Below are positions 2 through 15,700 of a DNA stretch of 21,937 bases, in pieces; the first letter of the stretch is position 1, and each line of letters starts with the position of its first letter. The DNA is from a virus. The notes below the pieces were generated by a model. The model saw only the letters and a program-made list of their open reading frames with translations, did no database searches and was not told where the DNA came from. The position numbers and the translations under genes were made by a program. The stretch spans positions 1 to 21,937 of IMG/VR virus record IMGVR_UViG_3300030099_001209, one strand, 5' to 3'.

Positions 2-319
2 ACATCAAAGCCATCAGACCGACATTTTAGAAATGCTTGGGCGATTTCTGGTAAAGTTATAGCTGAAGACATGACTAAGGCTAAAGAAATATTTAAAGAC
101 AAAATAAGGGAAGTAAGAAAACCTTTATTAGAAGCTGAAGATGTTGTGTACATGAAAGCACTAGAAGCAGATGACGCTTCTGCTAAAACTGCAAGTGTTA
201 ATAAGAAGAAAGCATTAAGAGATGCACCTGCGGCAAAAGCTATTACAGATGCAGATACTATTGATAAGTTAAAAGCAGCGTGGGATACATCTGTACTTGG
301 TGACAGCCCTTACGCATAA
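2..319 (+). CDS. Tail-assembly-type phage protein, 5' end cut by the window
   Basis: The frame is open from base 2 to the TAA at 317-319, so this is the C-terminal 105 residues of a longer gene. An internal ATG at 71 would drop the segment reading PSDRHFRNAWAISGKVIAED, which fits the start of a domain I recall from small tail-assembly or tail-fibre-assembly-like proteins of marine phages: Arg-x-Phe-Arg-x-Ala-Trp, then a helix (AKEIFKDKIREVRKPLLEAED), then Lys-rich and Leu-Arg-Asp motifs, and a Leu-Lys-Ala-Ala-Trp near the end. The segment is charged and mostly helical, with no membrane segment. It precedes a run of fibre genes, which fits a chaperone or assembly role, but function is inferred from context. 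Translation probably passes to the next gene through AAGGAG at 318-323, which overlaps its stop. Confidence 0.75.
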   Translation, partial: TSKPSDRHFRNAWAISGKVIAEDMTKAKEIFKDKIREVRKPLLEAEDVVYMKALEADDASAKTASVNKKKALRDAPAAKAITDADTIDKLKAAWDTSVLGDSPYA

Positions 320-328
320 GGAGTAACG

Positions 329-850
329 ATGGCTTTAACTAAAGTAAGAGGTGATGGAGTATTAGGAATGAGTTTGCTCTCTACTTCTACAGCTATATCT
401 ATGGATGCAAATGGTAATATAACCAACCCATTACAACCTATGTATCGTGCAGTATTAACAAACAGAATGAGTTTAAGTGGCACTGCCGAAACACAAGTAA
501 CAGATATAACAGAAAATTTTGATGTAGGTAATGATGCTACTGGTGGAACATTTACTTGTCCTATTGCAGGAAAATATCTTGCAACTTTTAGTGGCTCTTA
601 CCGAAGTGATGGTGCAAGTTATGTTGATGCTTCCATAAAACACAATACGTCATATGTAGCAAGAGGATATAGTGAACTTCCAAATGCTGCTGAAGTTAGA
701 GGTGCAAATGCTTGGCATCCGTTTGGATGCACTGCATTAGTAAGTTGTTCTGCAAGTGATACAATAAAATTCTTTTTTGGTGCAGGAACAGGAGCATCAC
801 AATTACTTGAAACACCTTACACAGTTATGCAAGTAAAATTAGTAGCATAG
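329..850 (+). CDS. Tail fibre / adhesin with C1q-like jelly-roll domain
   Basis: A 173-residue protein. The N-terminus (MALTKVRGDGVLGMSLLSTS, then DANGNITNPLQPMYRAV) resembles the attachment segments of marine phage fibre proteins. From about residue 55 the pattern becomes C1q/TNF-like: a Thr-Phe-Thr-Cys-Pro-x-Ala-Gly-Lys-Tyr-Leu strand around residues 72-83, alternating strands, then VSCSASDTIKFFFG near 142-155 and a hydrophobic final strand MQVKLVA. Such trimeric jelly rolls serve as receptor-binding heads in several phages. Start is set by AAGGAG 5 nt upstream of the ATG. It lies between an assembly-like gene and other fibre-type genes. The fold is assigned from pattern only, and receptor specificity cannot be read. 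Confidence 0.65.
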   Translation: MALTKVRGDGVLGMSLLSTSTAISMDANGNITNPLQPMYRAVLTNRMSLSGTAETQVTDITENFDVGNDATGGTFTCPIAGKYLATFSGSYRSDGASYVDASIKHNTSYVARGYSELPNAAEVRGANAWHPFGCTALVSCSASDTIKFFFGAGTGASQLLETPYTVMQVKLVA

Positions 851-858
851 GAGATAAA

Positions 859-1131
859 ATGGCTAAGTACACAGTTGAATTAACAGATACAGAAGATAAG
901 GCAATGACATATGTTACTGATGGTACATTAGATTGGGTTACAAATGCTTTAAAAAATAGAGCAAGAAAAGGTAAAGATGAAATCATTGCTCTTAATATGA
1001 AACATTGTAACGCTAATGGAATTGCAATAGCTACTGGCGAAGATGCACAAGTAAATCAAGCATTTGAACTTAAAGTTGTAAAAACAGCTAAAGAAGTTTA
1101 TGAAGAGCAAAAAGCACCTATAGGAGAATAA
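859..1131 (+). CDS. Small conserved phage protein of unknown function
   Basis: A 90-residue soluble protein. I recognise its style from marine phage genomes: YTVELTDTEDKAM at the start, then DWVTNALKNRARKGKDEII as a predicted helix, an Asn/Cys/Gly segment, and a C-terminal helix with KTAKEVYEEQKAP. No catalytic motif, signal peptide or membrane segment is visible. AGGAG at 849-853, overlapping the previous stop, lies 5 nt from the ATG and fixes the start. It is flanked by two fibre-type genes and separated from the next only by its own TAA, so it is probably a minor tail or assembly component. That role is inferred from position. Confidence 0.7.
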   Translation: MAKYTVELTDTEDKAMTYVTDGTLDWVTNALKNRARKGKDEIIALNMKHCNANGIAIATGEDAQVNQAFELKVVKTAKEVYEEQKAPIGE

Positions 1132-1590
1132 ATGCCATACATAGGAAAAGCACCAAACTTTGGAGTAAGAAGTAGATTTGTATATCAAGCTACAGCAGGA
1201 CAAACATCCTTCAGTGGTTCAGATAGCAATTCATTAACGCTGTCATACAACGACAGTCTATACATGGATGTGTATCAGAATGGTGTGTTGTTAAAAGCAG
1301 GAACAGACTACACAGCTACAACAGGCACAACAGTCGTACTCGTCACAGGTGCAAATGTAAATGACATTGTTGAGATGATTGTATATGATGTGTTCAGTGT
1401 AAACAATACTTACACTAAAACAGAGTCAGATACACGCTATCCTTTTAAAGGCAACAACAGTATTATAAGATTAAATGGTCAGACTATATCAGCAGATATA
1501 ACAATTGACAGTGATGAAAATGGTGTTAGTGCAGGTCCTATAACACAAAACGCTACAGTGACTGTTAATGGTTATTGGAGTATCGTATGA
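1132..1590 (+). CDS. Tail fibre shaft-like structural protein
   Basis: A 152-residue protein. Residues about 13-90 carry a pattern common to marine podovirus and myovirus fibre proteins: a Phe/Tyr-x-Ala-Thr-Ala-Gly-Gln-Thr-x-Phe-x-Gly-x-Asp opening, then strands ending VYQNGVLLKAGTDYTA and a GANVNDIVEMIVYDVF strand. A Thr-Tyr-Thr-Lys-Thr-Glu-Ser-Asp-x-Arg-Tyr motif near residues 93-103 resembles trimeric-shaft registers. The end (AGPITQNATVTVNGYWSIV) matches the typical last strand of such proteins. AGGAG 5 nt before the ATG supports the start. The stop overlaps the next start as ATGA (1587-1590), implying coupled translation with the four-gene array that follows. It probably links or caps fibre parts; the exact role is unknown. 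Confidence 0.6.
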   Translation: MPYIGKAPNFGVRSRFVYQATAGQTSFSGSDSNSLTLSYNDSLYMDVYQNGVLLKAGTDYTATTGTTVVLVTGANVNDIVEMIVYDVFSVNNTYTKTESDTRYPFKGNNSIIRLNGQTISADITIDSDENGVSAGPITQNATVTVNGYWSIV

Positions 1591-1979
1591 CAAGTCAGCT
1601 AAACGTAGACACAATAGCTAACAAGGCAGGTTCTGGAACTGTAGCTTTTACAAAACAAGAAGGTGTAAAAGCAAGATTAAACTATAATGACAACTCAGCT
1701 AACATATTAGGAAGTTTTAATGTTTCTTCAATTAATGATGAAGCAGCAGGTAAATTTAAGGCTTCTTGGACTAATAGTTTTGATAATGATGATTACTCAA
1801 CTACAGGAAATCATGCTGAAGATAATGGTTTATACAGTAACTTTGGTGCAGGTAGTAGAATATCTTGGTTTAACTCATCAAGATCATCATCAGTTTGTTA
1901 TGGTGCAACAGAAGTTGTTGGCAGTGGGTTTACTGACATGAGAACAGTTGAAGGACAGTTCATTGGAGACCTAGCATAA
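1587..1979 (+). CDS. GDLA-array protein 1 (tail fibre-like paralogue)
   Basis: A 130-residue protein, the first of four tandem paralogues. I chose the ATG at 1587 over a TTG at 1575 because it overlaps the previous stop as ATGA, has GGAG at 1577-1580, and then starts MTSQLNVDT like its neighbours (MASQLKVDT, MASELRVNT). The middle holds the shared core: a Ser-Phe-Asn-Val-Ser-Ser-Ile-x-Asp segment, an Ala-Gly-Lys-Phe strand, a Phe-Thr/Trp-Thr-Asn-Ser strand and an Asp-Asp-Tyr turn. It ends FIGDLA. Related domains occur, as I recall, in fibre proteins of uncultured marine phages. The ligand is unknown, and a surface-binding or decoration role is inferred. Confidence 0.6.
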   Translation: MTSQLNVDTIANKAGSGTVAFTKQEGVKARLNYNDNSANILGSFNVSSINDEAAGKFKASWTNSFDNDDYSTTGNHAEDNGLYSNFGAGSRISWFNSSRSSSVCYGATEVVGSGFTDMRTVEGQFIGDLA

Positions 1980-2417
1980 TGGCAAGTCAACTTAAAGTAG
2001 ATACGCTAACAGGTGTAACAACGGCAGGAAGCATTGCTGTTACAGGTGAAGGCAACAGTACAACAACAAACTTGCAACAGGGTTTGTGTAAGGCATGGGC
2101 TAGTTTAAATGATGCAGACACTGGTAGCCCTGCACTTTTAGATAGTTTTAATTCTTCAGGATTTACGGATACTGCAACAGGTCATTTTAAAATAAATTTT
2201 ACTAATAGTTTTAATAATAATGATTTTGCTACAACCACCTCTAGTCGTTTTGCAGATGTAGATGTTGGTGCAATGTTGACTGACCAAACAACATCGCAAA
2301 CTAAACTTTTAGGTCGTGCTTACAATTCAAATAGTAATACTGATTTTAATGAAAATATGTGTGCATCTATGGGAGATTTAGCATAATGGCAAGTGAACTA
2401 AGAGTAAATACGTTAAA
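1965..2417 (+). repeat. Direct repeat at GDLA-array junctions (1965-2010 and 2372-2417)
   Basis: Two copies of a roughly 46-nt junction sequence differ at only eight positions. Each runs from the GGAGA of the Gly-Asp-Leu-Ala codons through TAATG into the next gene's MASxLxVxT codons; the central 16 nt (TAGCATAATGGCAAGT) are identical. The distance between copies (407 nt) equals one gene. The start of array gene 1 at 1587 carries a more diverged copy of the second half. The repeat would allow homologous exchange or loss of a whole cassette. Confidence 0.75.
1979..2386 (+). CDS. GDLA-array protein 2 (tail fibre-like paralogue)
   Basis: A 135-residue protein starting MASQLKVDTLTGV, from a TAATG overlap with the previous gene. 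The core follows the family pattern: GLCKAWASLNDADTG, then LLDSFNSSGFTDTATGHFKI, a Phe-Thr-Asn-Ser-Phe strand and NNNDFATT. It ends ASMGDLA. GGAG at 1965-1968, inside the preceding gene's Gly-Asp-Leu-Ala codons, is the only visible Shine-Dalgarno and lies 10 nt upstream. It is about as long as array members 1 and 3, but its sequence diverges outside the ends and the core, as expected for paralogues under diversifying selection. No signal peptide or transmembrane segment is present. Function is inferred only from neighbours. Confidence 0.6.
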   Translation: MASQLKVDTLTGVTTAGSIAVTGEGNSTTTNLQQGLCKAWASLNDADTGSPALLDSFNSSGFTDTATGHFKINFTNSFNNNDFATTTSSRFADVDVGAMLTDQTTSQTKLLGRAYNSNSNTDFNENMCASMGDLA

Positions 2418-2793
2418 GGATGCAAGTGGCAATAACTCTATAGCAACGAGTGTGGTGTTTGCAGGTACGGCAAAGGCTTGGGTTGTATGCGACCAAAGAA
2501 CATCATTAAGTACAGGAGATAGCTATAACATTGCTAGTACATCTGATGAATCAGCAGGTGAATTACAACATAACTTTACTAATAATATGGGTAGTGCAGA
2601 ATATTCTATTGCAGGTGCTTGTGGATATGAAGATACAAATGATGATGACCAAGTTTTTACATTAGGGTTAAGAAGAAATAATGCACCTACAGCAGGTAAT
2701 TATACAATTCAAACTTGTAATGCTTTGGCAAACTCCAGTGGTGGAATAGATTTAGATAATGTAATGACTCAAGTATGTGGAGATTTAGCATGA
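2386..2793 (+). CDS. GDLA-array protein 3 (tail fibre-like paralogue)
   Basis: A 135-residue protein. An in-frame ATG at 2359 exists, but it would give a 9-residue extension out of register with the family. The ATG at 2386 sits in a TAATG overlap, gives MASELRVNTLKDAS, and has GGAG at 2372-2375. The core reads TAKAWVVCDQRTSLSTGDSYN, then a Ser-Asp-Glu-Ser-Ala-Gly-Glu-Leu strand, HNFTNNMGSAEYSIAGACG, and ends QVCGDLA. Two cysteines occur in the central part and one in the C-terminal tail; nothing shows whether they bond. Its 5' end shares a near-identical DNA segment with member 2, suggesting duplication or recombination. Confidence 0.6.
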   Translation: MASELRVNTLKDASGNNSIATSVVFAGTAKAWVVCDQRTSLSTGDSYNIASTSDESAGELQHNFTNNMGSAEYSIAGACGYEDTNDDDQVFTLGLRRNNAPTAGNYTIQTCNALANSSGGIDLDNVMTQVCGDLA

Positions 2794-3143
2794 GCAGAGC
2801 ATCAGATTTAGGTAGGTTGGAGGGTGTATCAAAGTCTTGGTGGCAATATGATCAAGTTAATACTACAACAGATGGTAGTTTTAATGTGTCATCAATTAGT
2901 GATGATTCAACAGGAATATACACACCAACATTAACTGCTGCACAAGTTAATATAACAGATAGATGTGTGGTTTTAACCAGTAACCATGATACTGGAGAAA
3001 ATTATGCTAGAATTTCTGCTTTACGACACGATAAAGGTGGAACTTATTCAACAACAGCTATATCAGTTGAAGTATTTTATGCTTCTTTTGTTTTAAACGA
3101 CAACCGACATAACTTTGGCACTGTATTTGGAGATTTAGCTTAA
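2790..3143 (+). CDS. GDLA-array protein 4 (shorter tail fibre-like paralogue)
   Basis: A 117-residue protein from an ATGA overlap with member 3; GGAG at 2779-2782 is 7 nt upstream. An ATG at 2775 is rejected because it would overlap the preceding gene further. Unlike members 1-3 it lacks the MxSxLxVxT opening and starts MSRASDLGRLEGVSKSWWQY. It keeps the core (DGSFNVSSISDDSTGIYTPT) and the ending FGDLA. It is therefore a truncated or rearranged family member rather than an unrelated gene. The Ser-Lys-Ser-Trp position aligns with the Lys-Ala-Trp of members 2 and 3. The function is unknown and is taken to be the same as its siblings. Confidence 0.6.
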   Translation: MSRASDLGRLEGVSKSWWQYDQVNTTTDGSFNVSSISDDSTGIYTPTLTAAQVNITDRCVVLTSNHDTGENYARISALRHDKGGTYSTTAISVEVFYASFVLNDNRHNFGTVFGDLA

Positions 3144-3620
3144 ATGTTAGGCTTTAGTGCTTTATCAGAAAACCCTATTAGTAGTGTTAATAAGGTACTA
3201 GAACTTTCAGCATCAATGACAGGTTTAGCCGTATCGTCTTCTGCTGCGGCTGGTACGCTTGTTGGTGCAAGTACGATGTCTGCTAATTCTACACAAACAT
3301 CAACTGGAGTTAGAATACTTGTTCACAGTGCAAGTCTTGAGTCATCATCTGTAGCATCCTCTTCTGCTGTGTTCATAAAAGGATCAACATTACAAACGGA
3401 TTTAGTATCGTCCTCTGTGCAAACAGCAACTGGTGTTCGTGAAAGATTTGGAACGGCCGTTGCTAGTTTAAACACTACACAAACAGCAACTGGTGAATTA
3501 TTATTTACAGAAATTAATCCAAGTGTTACTGTGACTTACACAGAGATTACGCCAAGTGTCACGGCTACTTACACAGAGATTACACATACTGGTGACACAT
3601 GGACAGAGATTACACCATAG
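3144..3620 (+). CDS. Ser/Thr-rich repeat protein, probable fibre component
   Basis: A 158-residue protein made mainly of Ser, Thr, Ala and Val, with two repeat systems. Residues about 50-116 have three copies of a Gln-Thr-x-Thr-Gly motif (QTSTGVR, QTATGVR, QTATGEL). The C-terminus has four copies of Thr-Glu-Ile-Thr/Asn-x (TEINPSVT, TEITPSVT, TEITHTG, TEITP) spaced 10-11 residues apart. Repetitive Ser/Thr-rich strands suggest a fibrous beta structure exposed on the virion. There is no signal peptide. The start directly follows the previous stop, with GGAG at 3129-3132 inside that gene's GDLA codons. Function is unknown. Low complexity makes homology searches weak, but the uninterrupted frame and tight packing between genes argue that it is real. 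Confidence 0.6.
   Translation: MLGFSALSENPISSVNKVLELSASMTGLAVSSSAAAGTLVGASTMSANSTQTSTGVRILVHSASLESSSVASSSAVFIKGSTLQTDLVSSSVQTATGVRERFGTAVASLNTTQTATGELLFTEINPSVTVTYTEITPSVTATYTEITHTGDTWTEITP
3420..3495 (+). repeat. 16-bp direct repeat in the Ser/Thr-rich gene
   Basis: CAAACAGCAACTGGTG occurs at 3420-3435 and again at 3480-3495, exactly 60 nt apart, encoding two of the three Gln-Thr-Ala-Thr-Gly motifs. A third, diverged copy lies near 3294. The in-frame spacing (20 residues) means slippage or recombination would change repeat number without breaking the frame. Confidence 0.7.
3507..3617 (+). repeat. Four tandem Thr-Glu-Ile coding repeats
   Basis: Units start at 3507, 3540, 3573 and 3603, so the periods are 33, 33 and 30 nt. 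The segment ACTTACACAGAGATTAC is identical at 3534-3550 and 3567-3583. Units encode TEI(N/T)PSVT-type strands at the C-terminus of the Ser/Thr-rich protein. All periods keep frame. Confidence 0.75.
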
Positions 3621-3629
3621 GAGTATTAA

Positions 3630-5357
3630 ATGGGAAGTGATTATACAGATAATAACAAGTTTGAAAAAATAGGAACGGGAGAACAGGCAGGAACCTGGGG
3701 AACCACGACTAATTTAAACTTTGATATGATAGATAGAGCGATTAACGGAGTTACAAGTATTAGTTTAAGTGGGACTGCTAGTAGTATAACAACTTCTGAT
3801 GGCACATTGACAGATGGTCTTTTTAAAGTTTTACAATTTACTGGTTCTTTAAGTGCTGGTCACACAGTAACTATTGCTCCAAACAGTGTTGAAAAATTAT
3901 ATTTTATAAATAATACTTCTGGAAATACTTTGACATTTATTCAAGGCACGGGTGGGACTGTTGGCAATGGCCGTGCTGTTGCAATCGAAAACAATAAAAC
4001 TGGAATCATATTTTGTGATGGAAGTGGAGATGACGCTACTGCAAAAGTACAGAAGATTGAAACTGGTTCAGATGAATTTACAGAAGATGTAACTATTAAA
4101 ACAGATGATGGTGCACTGTTAACTTTGCAGACAGGTGATACGACTGTTACAGATGGTGACGTTCTTGGAGCTTTACAGTTTCAAGCACCAAGTGAAACAG
4201 ATGGTGATGGTGATGCAACTTCTGATTCAAGATCAGTTGCTGCTGCTATTGTAGCTGAAGCTGATGATACTTTTGATGATGATTCTGCTGCAACAGATCT
4301 TGTTTTTAAATTAGGAACAACTGTTGCTGGTGATGATACAGCTATTGAAAAGATGAGACTGACGCATGAGGGTGATTTAAATCTTGTTACGGATGGTAAA
4401 TCAATTAACTTTGGTGCTGACAGTGAAATACAATTAACACATCATGCAGATACAGGTTTAAAAATAAAACACAACACAAATGGTGATGATAAATTTCCAA
4501 CTTTAACATTACAAACAGGTGATCAAGATATTGCAGAAGATGATGTATTAGGACGCATTTCTTTTCAAGCACCAGATGAAACAGAAGGAACAGATGCACA
4601 ATTATCTGCTGTAAATATTGAGGCAGTTTCAGAGGGTAATTTTAGTGCAAGTAACAATGCAACAAGTTTAGTAATTAATACAACACATCATCAAACATCT
4701 GGAAATGGTGCAAAATACAGTTTTTCGGCAAATGGTTCATTTGAAGTAAAAACTGAAGAAACAGGCGATGGGGAAAACCCAGTGATAATGTTGCTCAATG
4801 GTGATACAAATATCGAAATAAATGATACTATAGGTTTCATAGGTTTTCAGGCACCAGATGAAACTTCAGCATCTGGTGATAATAAATTAGTATGTGCTGG
4901 TATTGCAGCTTTATCTGAAGGAGATTTTAGTGGAACTAATAATGCTACAAAACTTTCTTTTAGAACAGCAGCAAGTGAAACTGCAACAGAAAAAATGGCT
5001 TTATCATCCGCTGGAGCTTTAACTGTTACAGGTGATATAACAGCCTTTTCTTCAGATGAACGACTTAAAAACTTTGAAGGAACAATATTATCACCTTTAG
5101 AAAAAATACAAAAGTTAAATGGTTACACTTTTACATGGAACGATAAAGCAAAAGAATTAGATAAACATTTGTTTAAAGATCAAAAAGAAGTTGGCGTATC
5201 AGCACAAGAAGTACAGGCCGTATGTCCAGAGGTTGTAAAACCAGCACCTTTTAATAAAGATTATTTAACAGTTCAATATGAAAAACTTGTTCCGTTATTA
5301 ATTGAAGCGATTAAGGAACAGCAAAAACAAATTGATGAATTAAAGAAAGATAAGTAG
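3630..5357 (+). CDS. Tail fibre with C-terminal S74 intramolecular chaperone
   Basis: A 575-residue protein. Residues 1-40 (YTDNNKFEKIGTGEQAGTWG, then NLNFDMIDRAINGV) form the N-terminal motif common to marine phage fibres and presumably attach it to the virion. The shaft contains three diverged repeats near 160-230, 289-350 and 383-447, each with a Leu-x-x-Gly-Asp turn and Phe-Gln-Ala-Pro-Ser/Asp-Glu-Thr. A segment near 254-281 (INFGADSEIQLTHHADTG) is also typical. Residues 475-575 form a Peptidase_S74 / endosialidase-type chaperone: Ser475-Asp-Glu-Arg-Leu-Lys480, then GVSAQEVQAVCPEVV and a C-terminal coiled helix. In that family the chaperone drives trimer folding and then cuts itself off at the conserved Ser. 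The shaft shows no enzymatic motif. AGGAG 6 nt upstream fixes the start. Confidence 0.85.
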   Translation: MGSDYTDNNKFEKIGTGEQAGTWGTTTNLNFDMIDRAINGVTSISLSGTASSITTSDGTLTDGLFKVLQFTGSLSAGHTVTIAPNSVEKLYFINNTSGNTLTFIQGTGGTVGNGRAVAIENNKTGIIFCDGSGDDATAKVQKIETGSDEFTEDVTIKTDDGALLTLQTGDTTVTDGDVLGALQFQAPSETDGDGDATSDSRSVAAAIVAEADDTFDDDSAATDLVFKLGTTVAGDDTAIEKMRLTHEGDLNLVTDGKSINFGADSEIQLTHHADTGLKIKHNTNGDDKFPTLTLQTGDQDIAEDDVLGRISFQAPDETEGTDAQLSAVNIEAVSEGNFSASNNATSLVINTTHHQTSGNGAKYSFSANGSFEVKTEETGDGENPVIMLLNGDTNIEINDTIGFIGFQAPDETSASGDNKLVCAGIAALSEGDFSGTNNATKLSFRTAASETATEKMALSSAGALTVTGDITAFSSDERLKNFEGTILSPLEKIQKLNGYTFTWNDKAKELDKHLFKDQKEVGVSAQEVQAVCPEVVKPAPFNKDYLTVQYEKLVPLLIEAIKEQQKQIDELKKDK

Positions 5358-5359
5358 AA

Positions 5360-5995
5360 ATGGCTCTAACAGGTAGCGGCACTATAAGTATGAGTGATAT
5401 GCGAACTGAGTTTGGCATATCTGGTTCTATATCAATGAGTCAATTGTATAGAGGTGGTAGTGAAGTTTCTTCTACTGCAAGTCTTGGTGGTAGTGTAACT
5501 ACTGATGCAATTTCTTTTAGTTCTTTTGGTCAAAATGCATCTGGTTCTGCCACAAGCACAAAAGCATTAGGTGCAACTGTAGCTTCTGGCGATACTTTTT
5601 CTTCATTTACTTATAGTGGTTCATATGCAGTTAAACAAACTGGAGGTTTTGGAGTTCCAGGAGCAAGAGTTTTTTTCTCAAATAGTTCTGGAATTAGAAT
5701 TGGTAATTTTTTATCTCAAGCTCCTGCACCAGCACATAATACAACTAGCTCTCTAATTACAACACCTTTTAGTGTAACAGTATCAGCTGCAACTGTTTCA
5801 TCAAATCATGTTGGAGCAACACATATTTCGTCACAAGTTATTGATCCAGGAGCTCAATTTAGAATAGAAGATACTAACATACAAGCAAGTATGGCTGCAT
5901 TTACTTTTACAACTACACAAATTAGAGATGCTAATACAGGTGTTCCTCCATCTGGAACAATATCCTTCTCTGATTTATATGGAGCTACAGCATAA
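5360..5995 (+). CDS. Ser/Gly-rich tail structural protein
   Basis: A 211-residue protein. It begins with SGTISMSDMRTEFG followed directly by SGSISMSQLYRGG, and ends SGTISFSDLYGATA, so one short Ser-Gly-x-Ile-Ser motif occurs three times, at residues 6-19, 21-33 and 198-211. This arrangement is, as I recall, frequent in marine phage tail and baseplate-associated proteins. The middle is a Ser/Thr/Ala-rich predicted beta region (FSSFTYSGSYAVKQTGGFG, later PFSVTVSAATV). No signal peptide, membrane segment or catalytic motif is visible. It starts 2 nt after the fibre gene's stop and shares TAATG with the hub gene, placing it between fibre and hub. It could be a fibre-hub connector or a further adhesin; this is inference. 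Confidence 0.6.
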   Translation: MALTGSGTISMSDMRTEFGISGSISMSQLYRGGSEVSSTASLGGSVTTDAISFSSFGQNASGSATSTKALGATVASGDTFSSFTYSGSYAVKQTGGFGVPGARVFFSNSSGIRIGNFLSQAPAPAHNTTSSLITTPFSVTVSAATVSSNHVGATHISSQVIDPGAQFRIEDTNIQASMAAFTFTTTQIRDANTGVPPSGTISFSDLYGATA

Positions 5996-8142
5996 TGCCA
6001 CTAACCAAATTACAATTTCGCCCAGGTATAAATACAGACATAACATCCTATAGTAATGAAGGTGGGTGGACAGATTGTGATAAAATTCGTTTTAAGTTAG
6101 GATATCCAGAAAAGATAGGTGGATGGTCTAAGTTAACGGGAAGCACATATTTAGGTACGGCTAGACGTTTACATAACTGGACTGCGTTAGATGGTTCTGA
6201 CTTTTTAGGCGTAGGGACACATTTAAAATACTACATAGAAGAAGGTGGGTCTTTCAACGATATAACGCCAGTTCGTAAATCTACAACAAATTCTACAACA
6301 TTCGCAGCTACAAATGGTTCTGCAAATATAACTGTTACAGAAACTAGTCATGGTGCAGCAGAAAATGATTTTGTTACATTTAGCAGTGCTGTTAGTTTAG
6401 GTGGTTTAGTTACAGCAACCATACTTAATGCTGAACATAAAATAGTAAATGTTATAGATGGTAACTCTTACACCATAACAGTTAGTGTAACTGCTAATTC
6501 ATCTGATACTGGCAATGGCGGAAGTGCGACAGATGCTGTGTATTTAGTAAGTGGAGGTCTTGACTCTCAAATTGGTGGTACTGGTTGGGGTGGTGGCTTA
6601 TGGGGTGGCACAACTGCTAACGCTACAACAACCACTTTAACTGCAGCTATTACCAGTACAACTGCTACAACCATAGCTGTTACAGACGAAACAGGAATAG
6701 GTGTTGAATCTGACGGAACAACAACAAACACTGATGTTATATTAATTGGTGAAGAACTTATGCTCGTAACAGGTACAACAGATGATAATAGTTTAACTGT
6801 TACAAGAGGTCATAGTGGCACAACAGCTACTACACATTCAAATGGAGCAATTGTTCGATTAGCTGTAGGTAATTCATCCTCTGATGATGACTTTACTGGT
6901 TGGGGAATAGCAGCCGTAACTGGTACAACTCGTGAAATACGAACATGGTCACATGACAACTTTGGTGAAGATTTAATTATTAACCCTAGAGATGGTGGAA
7001 TATTTCTTTGGGATAAAACAACTGGTCTATCTACACGAGCCGTGGAAATAGGTACAATATCTGGTGCAGAAAATACACCGACTGTTGCCAAACAGGTTCT
7101 TGTAAGTGACATCGATAGACATGTGCTTTGTTTCGGTACGAACACATACGGAACAGATGTTCAAGATCCTTTGATGATAAGATGGTCTAACCAGGAGTCT
7201 GTAATAAACTGGACAATTAGCTCGGCTACAACAGCTGGAAGCATAAGACTTGGATCTGGATCAGAGTTTGTACAAGCCATAGAAACAAAACGTGAGATAC
7301 TTGTATACACAGATACATCATTACACTCTTTACGTTTTATTGGTGGTGAGTTTGTTTTTGGCATACAACAGATCGCATCTAACATCACAATTATGGGTCC
7401 AAACGCTGCTGTCGCTACAGAGGATTTTGTATTCTGGATGGGTAAAGATAACTTTTATGTATATGCTGGTGGTACGAAAACTCTACCTTGCACTGTTAAA
7501 GACAAAGTTTTTCTTGATTTTAATAATGAACAGAGAGACAAAGTTGTATCTGGTGTTAACTCTGAGTTTGGTGAGGTGATATGGTTGTATCCATCACAGT
7601 CTAATTCATTAGCTAATGCTGGAACAGGTGATATAGATAAATATGTCATCTATAATTACAATCAGCAAATCTGGTACTATGGAACATTAGTAAGAACAGC
7701 ATGGTTGGATAAGGGTATAAGACAGTTTCCTATAGCTGCTGGAACACCATTTTTATACAACCATGAGTTTGGTTTTGATGATGATGGTTCTGCCATGACA
7801 TCGTTTATTGAATCTGGGCCAATGGATATAGGAGATGGAGATAAATTTACTTTGATACAGAAAGTAATACCAGACTTAACCTTTCAAGGTTCTGACTCTA
7901 CCAGTTCTCCTGCGGCAACATTTACAATAAGAGCTAGAAACGAACCTGGTTTAGCTTACAGCAATACATCTTCTGGTACAGCAACCAGAACATCTGCGTC
8001 TCCTGTAGAGTTGTTTACGAATCAAATTAATCTAAGAGCAAGAGGTCGATCTTTTTCTTTAAAGGTTGATTCAAGTGCTCTTGGTATGAAATGGAAACTA
8101 GGATCACCAAGGGTTAGTCTTAGACCAGATGGGAGGCGTTGA
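5995..8142 (+). CDS. P22 gp10-like tail hub / DNA stabilisation protein
   Basis: A 715-residue protein. The N-terminus (LQFRPGINTDITSYSNEGGW, then CDKIRFKLGYPEKIGGW and LGVGTHLKYYIEEGG) and the C-terminus (LKVDSSALGMKWKLGSPRVS ending RPDGRR) match the phage stabilisation protein family typified by P22 gp10, as I recognise it. That protein forms the tail hub that closes the portal after packaging and carries fibres. Between roughly residues 95 and 290 lies a Thr/Asn/Gly-rich beta-type insertion with a GGTGWGGGLWGG stretch, also usual in marine relatives. From about residue 310 onward the sequence is a Trp- and Tyr-rich beta structure. TAATG couples it to the gene before. Its stop overlaps the next start as TGATG. 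The hub call is fairly sure; exact equivalence to gp10 is less so. Confidence 0.65.
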   Translation: MPLTKLQFRPGINTDITSYSNEGGWTDCDKIRFKLGYPEKIGGWSKLTGSTYLGTARRLHNWTALDGSDFLGVGTHLKYYIEEGGSFNDITPVRKSTTNSTTFAATNGSANITVTETSHGAAENDFVTFSSAVSLGGLVTATILNAEHKIVNVIDGNSYTITVSVTANSSDTGNGGSATDAVYLVSGGLDSQIGGTGWGGGLWGGTTANATTTTLTAAITSTTATTIAVTDETGIGVESDGTTTNTDVILIGEELMLVTGTTDDNSLTVTRGHSGTTATTHSNGAIVRLAVGNSSSDDDFTGWGIAAVTGTTREIRTWSHDNFGEDLIINPRDGGIFLWDKTTGLSTRAVEIGTISGAENTPTVAKQVLVSDIDRHVLCFGTNTYGTDVQDPLMIRWSNQESVINWTISSATTAGSIRLGSGSEFVQAIETKREILVYTDTSLHSLRFIGGEFVFGIQQIASNITIMGPNAAVATEDFVFWMGKDNFYVYAGGTKTLPCTVKDKVFLDFNNEQRDKVVSGVNSEFGEVIWLYPSQSNSLANAGTGDIDKYVIYNYNQQIWYYGTLVRTAWLDKGIRQFPIAAGTPFLYNHEFGFDDDGSAMTSFIESGPMDIGDGDKFTLIQKVIPDLTFQGSDSTSSPAATFTIRARNEPGLAYSNTSSGTATRTSASPVELFTNQINLRARGRSFSLKVDSSALGMKWKLGSPRVSLRPDGRR

Positions 8143-8366
8143 TGGCAGAATCTGATCAAGGCCCACCACGTTTACCCGATCCACCACCACAAGATTCTCC
8201 TTTTGGATATAGTCCTGGTGCGGGTGGAATAAATTATTCTTTACAGCAGACAATGAATACTCAATATTTACAAGACTTAGTAAGAGCATTAGAGTTTTAC
8301 ATTGCACAACAACAACGTAGTGAAATAGCTAATAACTCACAAACAATAAACTGGTTTTTAAGTTAA
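8142..8366 (+). CDS. Small Pro/Gln-rich virion-associated protein
   Basis: A 74-residue protein of unknown function. A TTG at 8139 is in frame, but the ATG at 8142 forms a TGATG overlap with the hub gene and lies 5 nt after GGGAGG (8131-8136), so I use it. Residues 1-30 are Pro-rich (GPPRLPDPPPQDSPFGYSPG). The rest is a predicted helix rich in Gln and Asn (LQQTMNTQYLQDLVRALEFY), ending INWFLS. There is no signal or membrane segment. The tight coupling on both sides suggests a minor tail protein made in step with the hub. Confidence 0.65.
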   Translation: MAESDQGPPRLPDPPPQDSPFGYSPGAGGINYSLQQTMNTQYLQDLVRALEFYIAQQQRSEIANNSQTINWFLS

Positions 8367-8689
8367 TGCCTATATTATACAAAAATGTTAAAAAGAAGTT
8401 ACAAACAGATACAACAATTTTAACACCAGCTAATGCAACAACGGCTATTATTAAATCAATTGTTGTTTGTGAACAAAGCAACAATAGCGAAACATTAAAT
8501 GTAACAATTACAGATACAGCAGATACTCCTGTAACATTTCAATTGTTTAAAGATAAAGCAATATCTGCAAAAGCAACAGTTGAATTGTTAACAGAGCCTT
8601 TGGTGTTGGCAGAATCAGAAACATTAAAAGCAACGGGTGCTGTAAATGATCAACTACATATGGTTGTAAGTTATCAAGAAATAAGTTAA
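8366..8689 (+). CDS. Small beta-rich phage structural protein
   Basis: A 107-residue protein whose start overlaps the previous stop as TAATG. It reads as alternating strands: TILTPANATTAIIKSIVVC, LNVTITDTADTPVTFQLF, then AKATVELLTEPLVLAESETL and HMVVSYQEIS. This pattern (a Thr-x-Ile-Ile-Lys-Ser-Ile strand, Val-Thr-Ile-Thr-Asp, a final Val-Val-Ser-Tyr strand) recurs, as I recall, in small tail-associated proteins of marine phages, and suggests an immunoglobulin-like or jelly-roll sandwich. No enzymatic residues stand out. A 22-nt gap follows. A decoration or connector role is inferred from fold and place. Confidence 0.6.
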   Translation: MPILYKNVKKKLQTDTTILTPANATTAIIKSIVVCEQSNNSETLNVTITDTADTPVTFQLFKDKAISAKATVELLTEPLVLAESETLKATGAVNDQLHMVVSYQEIS

Positions 8690-8711
8690 GGTGTAGCAAA
8701 GAGGGTATTAT

Positions 8712-9248
8712 ATGTTTTCAGGTCTTGGTGGTTTATTTAAAAGTATAGGCGGTTTCCCAGGTGTTTTTCTGGGTGCTAGTTTATTAGACATGTTACTTAA
8801 ACGTGGCGGAGGTAAAGGTTTAGAAAGTCTTTTTACACCAGAACAGATAGCAACGGGTGAAAGAGATCCAGACTATAAAGGTGATCCAACAAAATATAAT
8901 GTTTTTGTTAACACATTAACTGATGAAAGATTTGGTACAAAAGAAGAGCGTGACAAAGACCTCGAAGAAGTAAAGAAAGCAGCAGATGGTGGCATAATGT
9001 CAGCATATAGTTTAGGTGGTAAGGCAGAGCCAGAATTTGGTGGTTTGTTGCGTGGACCTGGTACTGGAACCTCGGATAGCATACCTGGCATGATATATCA
9101 AAATGGTAAACCAGTTCAAAGAGCAGCCTTGTCAGATGGTGAATTTGTGTTTACAAACAAAGCAGTCAAGGCTGCAGGTGGCGGAAGTATTGAAAAAGGT
9201 GCTGATGCAATGTATGAATTAATGAATAAGCTTGAAAGGAAAGCGTAA
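8712..9248 (+). CDS. Virion protein with tape-measure-type C-terminal motif
   Basis: A 178-residue protein. The N-terminus (MFSGLGGLFKSIGGFPGVFL, then GASLLDMLL) is hydrophobic and Gly-rich and could insert in or lie on a membrane. The middle is charged. The last 70 residues (GLLRGPGTGTSDSIPGMIY, then RAALSDGEFVFTNKAVKAAG and a helix MYELMNKLER) match a motif I know from the ends of tail tape-measure and internal virion proteins in marine phages, where Ser-Asp-Gly-Glu-Phe-Val is invariant. GAGG 7 nt upstream supports the start. It precedes three larger putative internal proteins, so it may be packaged in the head or tail tube and ejected. This is an inference. Confidence 0.6.
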   Translation: MFSGLGGLFKSIGGFPGVFLGASLLDMLLKRGGGKGLESLFTPEQIATGERDPDYKGDPTKYNVFVNTLTDERFGTKEERDKDLEEVKKAADGGIMSAYSLGGKAEPEFGGLLRGPGTGTSDSIPGMIYQNGKPVQRAALSDGEFVFTNKAVKAAGGGSIEKGADAMYELMNKLERKA

Positions 9249-10174
9249 TGGCAGTTCAATCTGGTTCTTCACAAACCTTTTTACCAGCTTACCAAGAAAA
9301 TTATCTTAAAGATTTATTAGCAAACGCAGCGGCTCTTGGAACTCAAGGCGGTATGGAAGTACCAGAGTATAAAATTGCAGATATGACACCTCTGCAAAAA
9401 CAAGCCATACAAATGGGTGCAGCAGGATTAGGTGCGTATGCTCCATTTTTTCAATCAGCCGCTGGAACATTAGGCAAAGGTGCAGAAGCTATAGCAGGCA
9501 GTACTGGAACTTTTGATCCTCGTTCTGTGTCACAGTTTATGGATCCGTATACAGAGGATGTAATAAGACAATCAGAAAAAGACATTGCAAGATTAGGGAC
9601 TAAACAGCAACAAGGTTTAAGAGATAGAGCAGTTGCTGCTGGTGCATTTGGTGGTGGTAGACAGGCAATAGGGGAGGCTGAAGTAGGTAGGAATGTTCTT
9701 GATCAACAAGCAAGAACTGGTGCACAGTTAAGATCGCAAGGCTATCAACAAGCTATGGGTCAAGCACAAGCAGCGTTTGAAAACCAACAGAGAAGACAGC
9801 AACAAGCTGGACAAATATTTGGTGGACTTGGACAAGCTACAGCACAATTAGGTCTTGGTCTGCAAGGTGCACAGCAAAGAGATGTATCAAGTCTTCTTGG
9901 TTTAGGTGGCTTGGAACAGGCACAACAACAGGCTGGTCTGGATGCATTTAGAAGAACTGCGGCAGAAAGAGCAAGATCACCTTATCAAAACTTAGGTTTC
10001 TTATCCGATATATTTAGAGGTGTGCCATCAACTGGCGGTACATACACACAACAATTTACACAAGATCCTAGTATGCTGTCACAAGTCGCTGGATTAGGAC
10101 TTGGATTAGCTGGATTAGGACAAGCATATCCTAAAATGTTTAGCGGAATATTTGGAGCACCAGCAAAAACATGA
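9248..10174 (+). CDS. Gln/Ala/Gly-rich putative internal virion (ejection) protein
   Basis: A 308-residue protein. The opening (MAVQSGSSQTFLPAYQENYL) and the PEYKIADMTPLQKQAIQMG segment are typical of a conserved marine phage virion protein. Residues about 95-240 are a long helical Gln/Arg/Ala-rich part (IRQSEKDIARLGTKQQQG, AVAAGAFGGGRQAIGEAEVG, then GQIFGGLGQATAQLGLGLQG). The Ala-Phe-Gly-Gly-x-Arg-Gln-Ala motif is a recognisable signature. The C-terminus has two Gly/Leu-rich hydrophobic stretches near residues 277-300 (LSQVAGLGLGLAGLGQAYP) that could contact a membrane. TAATG joins it to the previous gene and ATGA to the next. In podoviruses, helical Ala/Gln-rich proteins at this place are ejected with the DNA; I infer the same here. 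Confidence 0.55.
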   Translation: MAVQSGSSQTFLPAYQENYLKDLLANAAALGTQGGMEVPEYKIADMTPLQKQAIQMGAAGLGAYAPFFQSAAGTLGKGAEAIAGSTGTFDPRSVSQFMDPYTEDVIRQSEKDIARLGTKQQQGLRDRAVAAGAFGGGRQAIGEAEVGRNVLDQQARTGAQLRSQGYQQAMGQAQAAFENQQRRQQQAGQIFGGLGQATAQLGLGLQGAQQRDVSSLLGLGGLEQAQQQAGLDAFRRTAAERARSPYQNLGFLSDIFRGVPSTGGTYTQQFTQDPSMLSQVAGLGLGLAGLGQAYPKMFSGIFGAPAKT

Positions 10175-12726
10175 GCGTACTAAGCCGTAAAATGTTTAAT
10201 AGAGGTGCTCGTAAAGAGTTACGCAAAAAAGGTGGCATTGAAGATGTGCAATATTTTCAAACCGCTGGACCTGTTAATGTTCCTGGAACTCCTGCTCCAT
10301 ATACAAATCCTGCTGGAATGAATATTCCAGGTTTACAAGGTCCAGGAGTTAATCCTTATTTTAATTATAGACAAGCTTTAGCAAAAATTTCACCTAAACA
10401 ATTTGGATATCCAGCACCAGTTCAATCTACTAGAGGATTTGGAAAATTACCAGGAACTGGTTCTTTTACATATCCAACTGACAGAATAAGTAGCATTGGT
10501 TCTGGTTACTTCTCTGCTGATACAAAAGGTAGACCACTTTCAGATATAGCAAAACAAGCTTTAGAAGAGGGGGTTGGATCTTTAGGAGTTTTAGAACAAG
10601 GTCGTTTAGGTGCAGCATTTAGAAGATTTCAAGGTAAACAAGGTTTGAGTACGTTGTTAGATGAAGCAGTTAAAAAGACAGATTTTCCTGTTGTTAGAAG
10701 AATAGATCAAGCCGCTCCGATTGTGGGAGATGTATTAGGAACAATAGGAGGATTTACAGAGGGAGTTTTAGGATCTGCTTTTGCTGGTACAGAACCTGGA
10801 ACACCTGGTGGAGATATTGGTGGGGCAAAGCCTGGCACTCCTCAAGGAGATTTAAAAAAGTTTTATGAATCATTAGGGATTAGTTTTCTTACAGACAGTC
10901 CAACTCAACAAGGAAGACCTTTTCAAGATTTAACTGATGATGCAGACACTATGTTTCCAGATATTCCAGCTTTTGCATCATTAACAGATCAAGATAAAAA
11001 GATAAACGAAGATATAAAAGATTTGCTTTATCCAACTGAACAAAAAAATCTAGAAAACAGATATGATGCTGACAATGTTCCAGAAATTGATGCAGCTATA
11101 AATGAAGATATAAGAAAATTACTTTATCCAAAAGAACCAGACCCAGAATTAAATTTAGAAAATTTAATAACTAAAGAAACTGAAGGTAAAAAACGTATCA
11201 AAACTGAGATTAAGGCTGAAGATAAGGCTGAAGAACCAGAATTAAATGAATCTAATTCTGTTGAAATAACAAATGATGATACAAATGAAACAGTAAAAAT
11301 TCCAGATCTTAAAAATGCTAACGTGCAAAATCCAATTAATAGACCAGATAATTGGTCTAATATAGTAGCAAAAGCAAAAAATAATACTGGTGTAGTTAAT
11401 AAATCAACAGATGCAGACACTCTTGTTGATATGGAACGTGAAAAAGGATTAGGAACAGCAAAAGATTTTGCTGCGGAATTATTATCTATGTTACCTAAAT
11501 ATGGTGAAGATGATGCAAGAGACAAAGGTCTAAATTTAGCTATGATAGGTTTTAGTATTATGGCAGGAGACAGTCCTAATCCTCTTGTTAATATAGGTAA
11601 AGGTGTTATGAAAGTTTTACCTAGCATTATGAAAGATGTTAAAGATAAAAAGAAATATGACAGAGATATTCAAACAATAACAGCACAATATGGAATTAAG
11701 AAAGCTGATGCTATTGAACAAGAAAAGAGAAAGAAATCGGAATACATTGTTTCTCAAGATTTTACAGATTCGATAACTGGAAGAAAATATTTTGCAAATC
11801 AAAAAATTAATCTTAACGATGAAGGATATAATGATTTCGTGAAATCTGGTGGAGCAGCCTATTTAACTACAGCAGAAATTCAAAAACAAAATATTGTTTC
11901 TGCTGCGGCTGTCAGAAAGGCTGAAATAGAAAATAAAGGTAAACTTACAGGTATTAAAAATGTTAATGACATGTATGAAAAAACCACTCAATTTAAACCT
12001 TTTCCTGGAGATGATTTTAGCATACCTGTTCAATATGCTAAAGCAGGCGCACAAGGATTAGGATTGCCAGATATAAGAATAGTTAATGAAAAAGGCACGA
12101 TAGATGCTCTCTATTCTCATTATGAAGGCAAGGTTGGAGATTTTCAAAGAATTTTAGAAACAACTGAAAGTTTAAGAAAAATTACTTTTACAGAAAAAGT
12201 TACAGGTGGTGCCGCTATTTTTGCAGAAATAGACAAGGGAATAAAATCTGGGTTAAACTTTTCACCAAGACTTTTAAATGCTTATAATCGTCTCACTGGA
12301 ACAGATTTAACAGATAAAAATTTAACATATAAAAATCAATTTGAAATAAAACATAGAATGTTAACTCTCGAAGTTACTCCTCTTCTTTTAGGTGAATCTG
12401 CTAAAACTATTTCGGATGCAGATAGAGTTTTAATAGCTCAAGCTTTAGGTTTTGAAAATGCAAAAATGAGAGGAAAAGAAGGAGAGGGTGTTGATTTCGG
12501 AAAACAAAAGGTTTTTACAAGTAGCGATGAAATAAGAGAAGCGTTAGTAGAAGTTGATAAATATATGTTAAAAGAAGTTAAAAAAGTTAATAGAACATTT
12601 ACAGGAAGTTTGCGTGGATTAGGGATTGAAATGCCAGAAACAGAAGTTCAACCTTCTGAAGTAGCTCAAGTTTTTGATCGATACGCTATTGTAGATGGTA
12701 AATTACAACTAAAAGACACAGCTTAA
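10171..12726 (+). CDS. Large putative internal virion / ejection protein
   Basis: An 851-residue protein starting in an ATGA overlap. The first 130 residues are Pro/Gly-rich. Residues about 275-330 carry a duplicated motif Asn-Glu-Asp-Ile-x-x-Leu-Leu-Tyr-Pro at 279 and 311. Residues 330-420 are very acidic and Lys-rich and probably disordered. A conserved segment near 430-530 (DFAAELLSMLPKYGEDDARD, then GLNLAMIGFSIMAGDSPNPL and long charged helices) resembles marine phage proteins encoded next to lysozyme or ejection genes. The C-terminal 200 residues are helical. No catalytic motif was seen. Size, helical content and position between a Gln-rich protein and a 1062-residue protein fit the three-member ejection sets of P22/T7-type phages, but sequence alone does not prove it. 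Confidence 0.55.
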   Translation: MSVLSRKMFNRGARKELRKKGGIEDVQYFQTAGPVNVPGTPAPYTNPAGMNIPGLQGPGVNPYFNYRQALAKISPKQFGYPAPVQSTRGFGKLPGTGSFTYPTDRISSIGSGYFSADTKGRPLSDIAKQALEEGVGSLGVLEQGRLGAAFRRFQGKQGLSTLLDEAVKKTDFPVVRRIDQAAPIVGDVLGTIGGFTEGVLGSAFAGTEPGTPGGDIGGAKPGTPQGDLKKFYESLGISFLTDSPTQQGRPFQDLTDDADTMFPDIPAFASLTDQDKKINEDIKDLLYPTEQKNLENRYDADNVPEIDAAINEDIRKLLYPKEPDPELNLENLITKETEGKKRIKTEIKAEDKAEEPELNESNSVEITNDDTNETVKIPDLKNANVQNPINRPDNWSNIVAKAKNNTGVVNKSTDADTLVDMEREKGLGTAKDFAAELLSMLPKYGEDDARDKGLNLAMIGFSIMAGDSPNPLVNIGKGVMKVLPSIMKDVKDKKKYDRDIQTITAQYGIKKADAIEQEKRKKSEYIVSQDFTDSITGRKYFANQKINLNDEGYNDFVKSGGAAYLTTAEIQKQNIVSAAAVRKAEIENKGKLTGIKNVNDMYEKTTQFKPFPGDDFSIPVQYAKAGAQGLGLPDIRIVNEKGTIDALYSHYEGKVGDFQRILETTESLRKITFTEKVTGGAAIFAEIDKGIKSGLNFSPRLLNAYNRLTGTDLTDKNLTYKNQFEIKHRMLTLEVTPLLLGESAKTISDADRVLIAQALGFENAKMRGKEGEGVDFGKQKVFTSSDEIREALVEVDKYMLKEVKKVNRTFTGSLRGLGIEMPETEVQPSEVAQVFDRYAIVDGKLQLKDTA

Positions 12727-12727
12727 T

Positions 12728-15700
12728 ATGGGAACTATTCAAATAGACACAGTTCAAGGTCCAATCCTTGTAGATATAGCAGGCGACACACCTACAGAAG
12801 AGGAACAAAAAGCAATCATAGAAGGTATTCAAGAATTAAATGCTGTTCAATCTGATGAAGAGGAGAAAAAAGAAGAAGTTATTGAAACTGTTGAAAAGCC
12901 AAAAGTAGAAGTTGATTATAAAACTGGTGTATCGGACATTGGTTTTCGTATGTTTGTTGCTAAAGGCGATAATGCTCAAGAAAAAATTCTACGTTTAAAT
13001 GAATTAGGTATCCCAAGTGAAGCTATCTCTCAAGATGAAAAAGGTGAGATACTGCTTAATAGAGATCAAATACCAGATGAAATAAAGGATAAATATAAAA
13101 TTCAAGGATCTGGTTTACTATCTATTGAAGAAGAAGCAAAGTTCACAAAAGCAGATTTTGCAGAATTTTTTAGCAAAGAACGTGGACCTTTGGTAGGAGG
13201 ATTAGCTGCATCATTAGCTGCATCAGGTTTTGGAATACCTATCGCAGCATTAATAACAGGTGGAGGTTCCACTCTTGGTTATTTATTTGATGAATATCAA
13301 GAGGACAAAGAGGGTCTTAGAGCACAAGACTCAAGTGATTTAATTAAAGGAACTGCGTTTGAATTTGCAGCAGGTGCTATAGGTGAGTCGGGTGGTAGAC
13401 TATTAACTAAAATGTTAGGTAGATTATTTAAAGGTTCTGGAGCAGAAAGTTCTAATGACGCTAGAACCATTGCAAGAGAAATATTAAAAGAAGGTGGAGC
13501 ACCTACTGTTAGAGCAGTCAATGAATCAGCTATTTTAGGTAGATTACAAGCCATATATGAGGGTGTATTTCCTAATAAAAAAGCTGCAGCTCAAAACGCT
13601 AAATTTGTTTCAGACTCCATAGCTAAAGCTATCAAAGAAACTGGTTTAAAAGGAGCATCGGCAAATTCAGATGAAGTATTTAAATTAATACAAAGAGATT
13701 TAAATGAGATATATGGAACATCAGATGATTTAATAAATCAAGCAAATAAAGATTTAGCTGATTTCGTAGACAAAGAATTTGATAAACTAAGGACTATGTA
13801 TAACAAAGGGACTATGTCTGAACAAGAAATTATAAAATCAATTCAAATAGCAAAAAGAATTTTTGATGAAGATTCAAATGCTATTTATGATAAAGCTAAT
13901 AAACTTTTAGGTGGAGTTGAATGGATAAATACAAAGCCTTTAATTGATAGATTTTTAAAATTAGTAGAAGATAATCCAGCATCTGGTTTACAAGATTCAA
14001 TTGTAGGCAAAACTATTTTAAAAGGATATGTACCCGCTAAAGAAGCAGTTAAAGATAAAAACGGAAAAATAATTAAAAAAGCTGTATTAGCTAAATATCC
14101 TAAAGTTACCATATCTTTTATAAATAGTATTAAAAATGCTCTTAGAAATAGTGAATTTGATCCTTCATTGGTAGGAACACCAGAAAAGAAACTTATAGGA
14201 GAAATGATTGGAGCTGCAGAACATTCAATAAGAACTTCTGAAACTGAATTAATAGAGCAACAAGCTAAATATGGTTTTAATATGGATGATCTTGGTGAGT
14301 TTGAGGATTTTGTAGATGTTAGTAAGCAAGTTAGAGATGGTTTAAATTATTTAAGAAAAGCAAATAAATTTTATGATGATGGAATACAAAGACTTAGAGC
14401 ACCTTACACTTCAAATATAATGGCTAAATTTTATTCTGGTAAATTTGACCCAGAAGAATTAATTGAAGAATTAGTTTTAAATAAACCAGATAGAGGAGGG
14501 CAATTAAATAAGTTCTTAAAATCTGTTAGAGGAACTCCTTTTATGTCTGGAAAACTTCTCGGAGGAGAAGGTGAAAGAATCATACAAGCTCCAGACTTTG
14601 AAAAGTTTTTAAAAGATGAATATGCGATGAGCAGAGAAATATTTGATTCAATACCAGATGGTGATGCTCTAAAAACATCAATTAAAAATAGATTTAGATC
14701 TATTCAAGATTTATTTCAAGACATGCAAAAGGCTAGAGGGAAAGGTGTCCCCACAAAAGAGGTTGTAAGAGAATCTTTAGCTAAAAACTATCTTAATAGA
14801 ATGTTTGCAGCAAACAAAAATGCGTTTGGTACTTTAAGTGCGTCAAGAGTTGCAGATGAATTATCTAAATTGGGGAGCACTGGAAGAGTTCTTTTTGGTA
14901 AAGATTACAATAAAGTGATGAATATTTTACAAGACATCACGGCATCTGGTCAAAAATTAACTCCTAGAGAAATAGCCAGTCTTAAAGGTAGACCAATAGC
15001 AGAGCAAGTTGATTTTTTAAATTCACTTACACAATCATCAAAACAAATTCAAAATCAAGCTTTAATGAGATCATTAAGCACAGCTATTAATCAAGGAAAT
15101 GTAGAAGGTATATCAGAATTATTGTTAAGACCTGGTTCAAGAGGTCTAACTTTAATTAGACAAGCAAAACAAAGTTTAAAGCCAGATACTATGGAAGCTG
15201 TAAGAGAAGCAGCTCTTTACAGAATTTTATCAGAACTACCAGACCCAACAACTGGTGGTAAAGAATTTATTGATAAAGTTTTTGATGGATCTTATTCTTC
15301 TCAACTTGCTAGAATATTGGATTCTTATGATGATAAGGTTTTAAAAGAATTGTTTGGAGATGGGGCAGAAGCACTTAAAAAATTATCTAAAAAATCAGAA
15401 TTAGTTTCACAAAAGCCAATAAAAGGATTAGGTGGATTAGCTGCTCCTTCTTATGCCACAGCTTTAGGATTAACCGCTTTTTTAGCTGGTCCGTTAAATG
15501 CGATTGGTTTGTATGTAGGATTGAATTTTGCATCAAAAATATTAAGACAACCTTGGTTTCTTAAATATTTAGCTAGACCAGTAGGAGTTAGACCAGGTGC
15601 TGGTGAATACGATAAGTTGGGTAGATTATTTGAAATTACATATGAAACTCTAGGACAAAGTGGTGCAAGAGAAACTGAAGTTTTGGGTATGTTAAGTGAT

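Follow-up and report, generated by a model that had tools for sequence, protein, structure and literature searches.

Among described systems, those closest to the gene array analysed here are receptor-binding protein domain shuffling, in which distal domains are exchanged behind conserved N-terminal domains (PMC10684548), and metaviromic islands, which, in the parts of the study considered here, carry marine phage tail fibres and C1q proteins with hypervariable C-termini (PMC3909814). The array shares the exchange of distal domains with the former, but in the array a single domain family moves between eight positions of one locus, the borders are fixed, and a translation signal is embedded. 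Like the islands, it combines a conserved N-terminus with a hypervariable recognition end in marine phages; the islands, however, as described in those parts of the study, hold single fibre and C1q genes, without tandem slots or slot-to-slot swaps. The N-terminal domain of the T7-type tail fibre gp17 (PF03906) is present in the first position of the array (slot A). Instead of a fused shaft and tip as in gp17, slot A encodes only ~149 aa, and the tips are encoded by genes of their own downstream.

The closest isolate carrying the array is the Puniceispirillum (SAR116) phage HMO-2011 (NC_021864, 25.0-31.4 kb), in whose deposited record the run of small genes is annotated with tail fibre, tail-related or hypothetical products. 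The organisation of this run is not described in the parts considered here of three papers on HMO-2011-type phages (PMC6918029, PMC8528129, PMC9038755), and the entry of the PHROG family phrog_11355, which the tips match, is silent on slots, tags, tip exchange and an embedded Shine-Dalgarno sequence. An earlier note on this DNA had put the array forward as an undescribed system. That holds for the slot-and-swap organisation, and a slot system with fixed tags, tips shared among eight positions and an in-frame border signal was not found in the literature searched; it does not hold for the genes, which are annotated in HMO-2011, or for the modularity of the tips, which is known (PMC3909814, PMC10684548). 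What is new here is the slot-and-swap organisation only.

In the array, the slots are fixed, the tags are conserved, the tips are swapped at definable borders, and a Shine-Dalgarno-like sequence is embedded in the coding sequence. We think it probable that these features belong to a slot-and-swap tail-fibre locus, in which the tag docks, an exchangeable tip contacts the host, neighbouring genes share translation junctions, and recombination renews the array. The tag would give each protein a separate docking site on the fibre or tail, and the tip, a predicted eight-stranded beta domain, would contact the host surface. The slots would be translated together via overlapping starts, with the terminal GGAGAY of one slot acting as the Shine-Dalgarno sequence of the next. 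Homologous recombination would carry tips as cassettes from slot to slot and from phage to phage, within bounds set by GxxKxW at the edge of the fold and by the GDLA/stop/start junction; a new tip would enter a slot without loss of the tag or of the next gene's translation start, and all tips would be present in the virion.

Genes of the window and relation to HMO-2011

The DNA analysed (the window) spans 1-21937 of a virus record 31,227 bases long. Its features relevant here are as follows.

2..319, + strand: 3' part of slot F; the full gene, in contig L001 (2362-2730), encodes 123 aa and ends SPYA
329..850, + strand: slot G, with tag MALTKV and here a C1q-like module
859..1131, + strand: small ORF of 90 aa after slot G; small ORFs occur at the same place in some other contigs
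1132..1590, + strand: slot H, conserved and adaptor-like, ending WSIV
1577..1580, + strand: GGAG, predicted Shine-Dalgarno of slot I, in Trp-Ser codons of slot H
1587..1979, + strand: slot I gene (m1), 130 aa; tag 1587-1661, tip 1662-1964, GDLA 1965-1976
1965..1968, + strand: GGAG, predicted Shine-Dalgarno of slot J, in Gly-Asp codons of slot I
1979..2386, + strand: slot J gene (m2), 135 aa; tag 1979-2080, tip 2081-2371, GDLA 2372-2383
2372..2375, + strand: GGAG, predicted Shine-Dalgarno of slot K, in the GDLA of the slot J gene
2386..2793, + strand: slot K gene (m3), 135 aa; tag 2386-2463, tip 2464-2778, GDLA 2779-2790
2779..2782, + strand: GGAG, predicted Shine-Dalgarno of slot L, in the GDLA of the slot K gene
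2790..3143, + strand: slot L gene (m4), 117 aa; tag 2790-2822 (MSRASDLGRLE), tip 2823-3128, GDLA 3129-3140
3129..3132, + strand: GGAG before the start (3144) of the next gene, seen in the sequence
3144..3620, + strand: gene for a Ser/Ala/Thr-rich protein of 158 aa ending in TEITP repeats; adjoins the slot array, outside it
3630..5357, + strand: fibre of 575 aa whose C-terminus is a Peptidase_S74 chaperone (PF13884, E 3.4e-12, above cut-off); a neighbour, no slot member
16359-18251 and 18501-20048, - strand: replication genes (family A polymerase, UvrD-like helicase)

The earlier note had picked out m1-m4 as four consecutive paralogous genes all ending in GDLA, and the ORFs, alignments to shuffled sequences, BLASTP and PHROG matches bear this out. 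Each start overlaps the preceding stop via ATGA or TAATG in the window ORFs. Local-alignment scores compared with 300 shuffles gave z = 5.8-13.9 for five of the six pairs, which BLASTP also aligned at E 2e-12 to 2e-4, while the m2/m4 pair is weak (z = 2.5, a score reached by 6 of 300 shuffles). All four match phrog_11355 "tail fiber protein" (E 6e-12 to 8e-8), as do 96 of 100 sampled array members. Searches with m1-m4 against Pfam gave nothing above cut-off, a PDB sequence search returned chance matches only, and megablast against phage records found no match. The array is not confined to bases 1587-3143, as first supposed; it begins upstream of window base 1, as visible in relatives and in the near-identical contig L001, and ends at about base 3143. 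Beyond that end, the terminal 30-33-base tandem repeats of the 3144-3620 gene encode TEITPSVTxTY, the 575-aa fibre gene (3630-5357) contains three 65-base repeats, and in other contigs genes ending EINA or similar come after the array.

The HMO-2011 array has the same slot order and tags as that of the window, with slot F 69% and slot H 82% identical, the latter protein being akin to pelagiphage tail fibres. It holds five GDLA tips, which are mostly 30-50% identical to those of the window and often best matched in other slots, and its slots C, J and L hold other modules. Within HMO-2011 22-36 kb, the only stretch compared, only the array genes match the window, and the window genes from 3144 to 16362 have no match there. 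HMO-2011-type phages are characterised, in the part of the source considered, by a DNA polymerase with two CXXCXGXG motifs (PMC6918029). This motif was not found in the window polymerase, and we therefore do not assign the window virus to the HMO-2011 type; its polymerase is closest to those of phage 023Pt_psg01, DSL-LC04 and HTVC023P/027P, the last being pelagiphages. Since an HMO-2011-like array accompanies a polymerase of another kind, the genome may be a mosaic, or phages whose cores differ may pass the array on as a block.

Slot order and slot-specific tags

We scanned IMG/VR with the four genes and the gene preceding them, and merged the relatives into 220 marine contig pieces; such phages are frequent in collections of marine viruses. 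The locus consists of about 12 slots in a nearly fixed order (A, B, C, D, E, F, G, H, I, J, K, L), of which the window covers F (partial), G, H, I, J, K and L. Slot A starts MPYIG and carries the T7-fibre N-terminal domain, slots B, C and D are tips, and slots E, F and H are marked by PEFQGT, SPYA and MPYIG..WSIV respectively. A GDLA tip can occupy eight slots (B, C, D, G, I, J, K and L). Of 90 contigs, 66 have tip-tip-tip-other downstream of slot H, and 16 have, as the window does, four tips before another module; downstream of slot A, tip-tip-tip-other is found in 31 of 37. The number and order of the genes are fixed, then, which the earlier note would have taken, together with a lack of divergence, as evidence against an array of cassettes; the tips themselves, however, are extremely divergent.

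Slot H is 84-97% identical in 80 contigs. No relative of it was found in a scan of bacterial and archaeal genomes, which gives no prophage or host link. Slots A and H are related only across their C-terminal 41 aa (44%), and since these parts are related, the locus appears to resemble two copies of "adaptor plus three tips". Slot A, which falls outside the window and was seen in L001, passes the PF03906 cut-off of 25.2 bits in L001 and L021 (27.9 and 27.7 bits respectively), whereas slot H (1132-1590) has no match to this profile.

Among the remaining slots, F weakly matches the PHROG tail fibre assembly families phrog_4912/8746 (E 0.0025/0.011), with a match to Phage_tail_APC below cut-off, and may be a fibre assembly factor. 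Relatives of slot F (49%) adjoin small genes in the Prochlorococcus podoviruses NATL2A-133 and 9515-10a, where they lie close to the tip domain, which is present there on its own or fused. Slot E (L001 1880-2350) is a conserved 157-aa PEFQGT protein of the arrays, with no family match in Pfam or PHROGs. The C1q match of slot G (PF00386, E 0.07) is below the Pfam cut-off, at 13.8 versus 23.7 bits, and slot G resembles an HMO-2011 CDS (L015 4951-5259) within a protein annotated as putative C1q. In most relatives (L015, L216, L166), slot L holds a protein of 320-380 aa ending DAEL or similar, which sits behind the tag MSKAAELA in place of the GDLA tip found in slot L of the window.

Each slot keeps its own N-terminal tag of ~10-45 aa: MTSQLNVDT in slot I, MASxLKVDT in J, MASELRVNT in K and MS[KR]xxxLA in L (MS[KR]A[AS][ED]L at the position of m4). 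Over the first 9 aa, within-slot identity is 0.45-0.91, and the nearest relative of a tag comes from the same slot in 526 of 554 cases. The shared start had been suspected to be a tag, and it behaves as one that is specific to position. What follows the tag varies: slot G carries a GDLA tip in 37 cases and another module in 126, slot L in 21 and 77 respectively, and in slots G, L and J the tag is unchanged when a non-GDLA module stands behind it. Identity of tags between the tip-bearing and the other type (0.50 in G, 0.47 in L) is no lower than that within the tip-bearing type (0.50 and 0.45), so member 4 has not lost the common start, as had been thought; its start is the tag of its slot, kept elsewhere whatever comes behind it.

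The GDLA end and the translation junctions

The exact GDLA end is present in 502 of 538 complete relatives, and its Gly codon is GGA in 478 of 490 (98%), compared to 30% elsewhere in these genes. The next ATG is at TAATG or ATGA in 473 of 487 cases, which places the GGAG of the Gly-Asp codons (GGAGAY) 7 or 10 bases before the next start. This codon bias, along with the fixed spacing to the ATG, points to the Gly-Asp GGAG as the Shine-Dalgarno sequence of the next gene, and the GDLA ending would mainly be that gene's ribosome-binding site. Slot H encodes a different protein and provides GGAG through TGGAGT/TGGAGC (Trp-Ser) at the same distance from ATGA, in 98 of 104 junctions. Whether TGA or TAATG follows GDLA depends on the slot, which suggests that the stop belongs to the slot and not to the tip. 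A translation signal hidden in a conserved peptide would explain why the ending looks like an assembly tag, and its being embedded would explain how a tip can be replaced while the following gene stays undisturbed. The Leu codon of GDLA is CTC in 33% of cases versus 2% elsewhere in the same genes, a DNA-level bias at the cassette border.

The earlier note had read the shared end as an assembly tag, and a related possibility is that GDLA is a structural or assembly element in which GGAG is incidental. Its Asp and Leu are kept through synonymous changes, with Leu in six codons, and GELA is rare although the Glu codons GAA/GAG would preserve GGAG, so that a protein-level constraint on GDLA, or a young junction, is possible. 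We consider an incidental GGAG unlikely, given the near-exclusive use of GGA for Gly, the equally spaced GGAG in slot H despite its WSIV end, the position of GDLA beyond the last predicted strand in the m2 and m4 models, and the tip relatives in two cyanophages, outside the array, that end otherwise than in GDLA. A purely assembly-related tag was rejected on the embedded Shine-Dalgarno sequence and these cyanophage endings, while a joint protein and RNA role is possible.

Fold, deployment and exchange of tips

The structures of m2 and m4, predicted as monomers with pLDDT 84 and 85 respectively, have eight strands in identical order, with the first strand at the GxxKxW border; these two models at least do not have the unrelated folds that would have spoken against a common family. 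BFVD matches (67 at E <= 1e-3) are phage proteins, including marine tail fibres. A 1710-aa ORF of the tail region of cyanophage 9515-10a has the tip domain at its extreme C-terminus (residues 1605-1705); NATL2A-133 encodes the domain on its own, in a gene for 118 aa. Further, part of the phiAB6 tailspike is similar to m4 (E 3e-3), and m2 weakly resembles an H-type lectin and a pyocin fibre, its best PDB matches being SLL-2 and the R2 pyocin fibre (E ~0.3). A host-contacting tip is the best reading of these similarities.

The cassettes might instead be proteins that decorate the virion or act as chaperones, interchangeable but with no part in host binding, since function is read here from family names and fold similarity, and the PDB match of m2 is weak. 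We regard this as quite unlikely: the 9515-10a domain stands at the very end of a long tail-region protein, a C1q-like module fills slot G in the window, and similar modules dominate the hypervariable host-recognition islands of marine phages, as far as the parts of that study considered here go (PMC3909814).

For host-contacting tips, the next question is whether they are displayed together. Shufflons and alternative fibre pairs hold several similar tip domains in store, and the array could likewise be a reservoir from which one or few tips are put on display, with inversion, recombination or a diversity-generating retroelement making the choice. This appears improbable, as all slots run in the same direction, each with its own start and predicted Shine-Dalgarno sequence, and slots remain filled in most contigs. 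No reverse transcriptase and no tyrosine or serine recombinase (PF00589/PF00239) was detected in the 31-kb record, possibly a fragment, which contains one weak inverted pair only; as far as that record goes, inversion was rejected as the source of variation, and a retroelement seems an improbable one. The earlier note had left the tips as "alternative or co-assembled"; with slots and order nearly fixed, and three tips following an adaptor, co-production is the likelier of the two. A more detailed picture, which we offer tentatively and hold to be rather doubtful, is that adaptor A or H bears three different tips simultaneously (B, C, D or I, J, K), held by their tags either in a hetero-trimer or on three distinct branches, giving six to eight different tips per virion. 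If true, the six to eight binding tips of a virion would evolve by combinatorial cassette exchange across the array.

Within the slot-and-swap locus, the interchangeable tip is ~95 aa long, and comparisons of tags and tips support the earlier view of an array of cassettes whose distal parts vary. For tips, the nearest relative lies in the same slot in only 245 of 554 cases, and even at >=90% identity in 60 of 89; the tip tree has 297 slot changes (356 when shuffled, with a minimum of 7). The 245 cases nevertheless exceed the 88 expected by chance, so vertical descent or slot preference is apparently also at work and tips are partly linked to slots. In contig pairs with slot H >=97% identical, tags are ~0.9 and tips ~0.33 identical, and tip identity is bimodal, ~90% of values being below 0.5 and ~10% above 0.9. 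This bimodality, alongside tags at ~0.9, argues that tips are replaced and do not drift gradually.

Individual exchanges can be recognised. Slot B of L098 holds a tip that shares 95% identity with that of m3 over 105 aa, behind a different tag, and slot B of L171 holds one that shares 75% with that of m4 over 88 aa; the nearest tips of m1 are in slot I of L002 (75%) and L003 (68%). A reciprocal swap was found between L216 and L229, where the slot K tip of each is the slot C or D tip of the other. Across 33 independent cross-slot swaps, the 5' border has its median 2 codons before the K of GxxKxW, and the 3' border 1 nt into the stop codon. Most contigs come from metagenomes, and in single contigs a chimeric assembly could pass for a swap, a reading weakened by the presence of tags on both sides and by borders with little shared sequence. 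Ancient tandem duplication followed by gradual divergence, with fast-evolving ends and no cassette exchange, would fit the slot linkage of the tips and the apparent homology of the tags of B-D with those of I-K, but is highly improbable given the bimodal tips of close kin and the near-identical tips with sharp borders behind different tags, as in m3/L098 and L216/L229.

With hundreds of naturally interchangeable tips and known borders, slot function and tip specificity become separable for study. Repeat families D1 and D4 occur at the junction and in the tip core, and could provide the substrate of ordinary homologous recombination.
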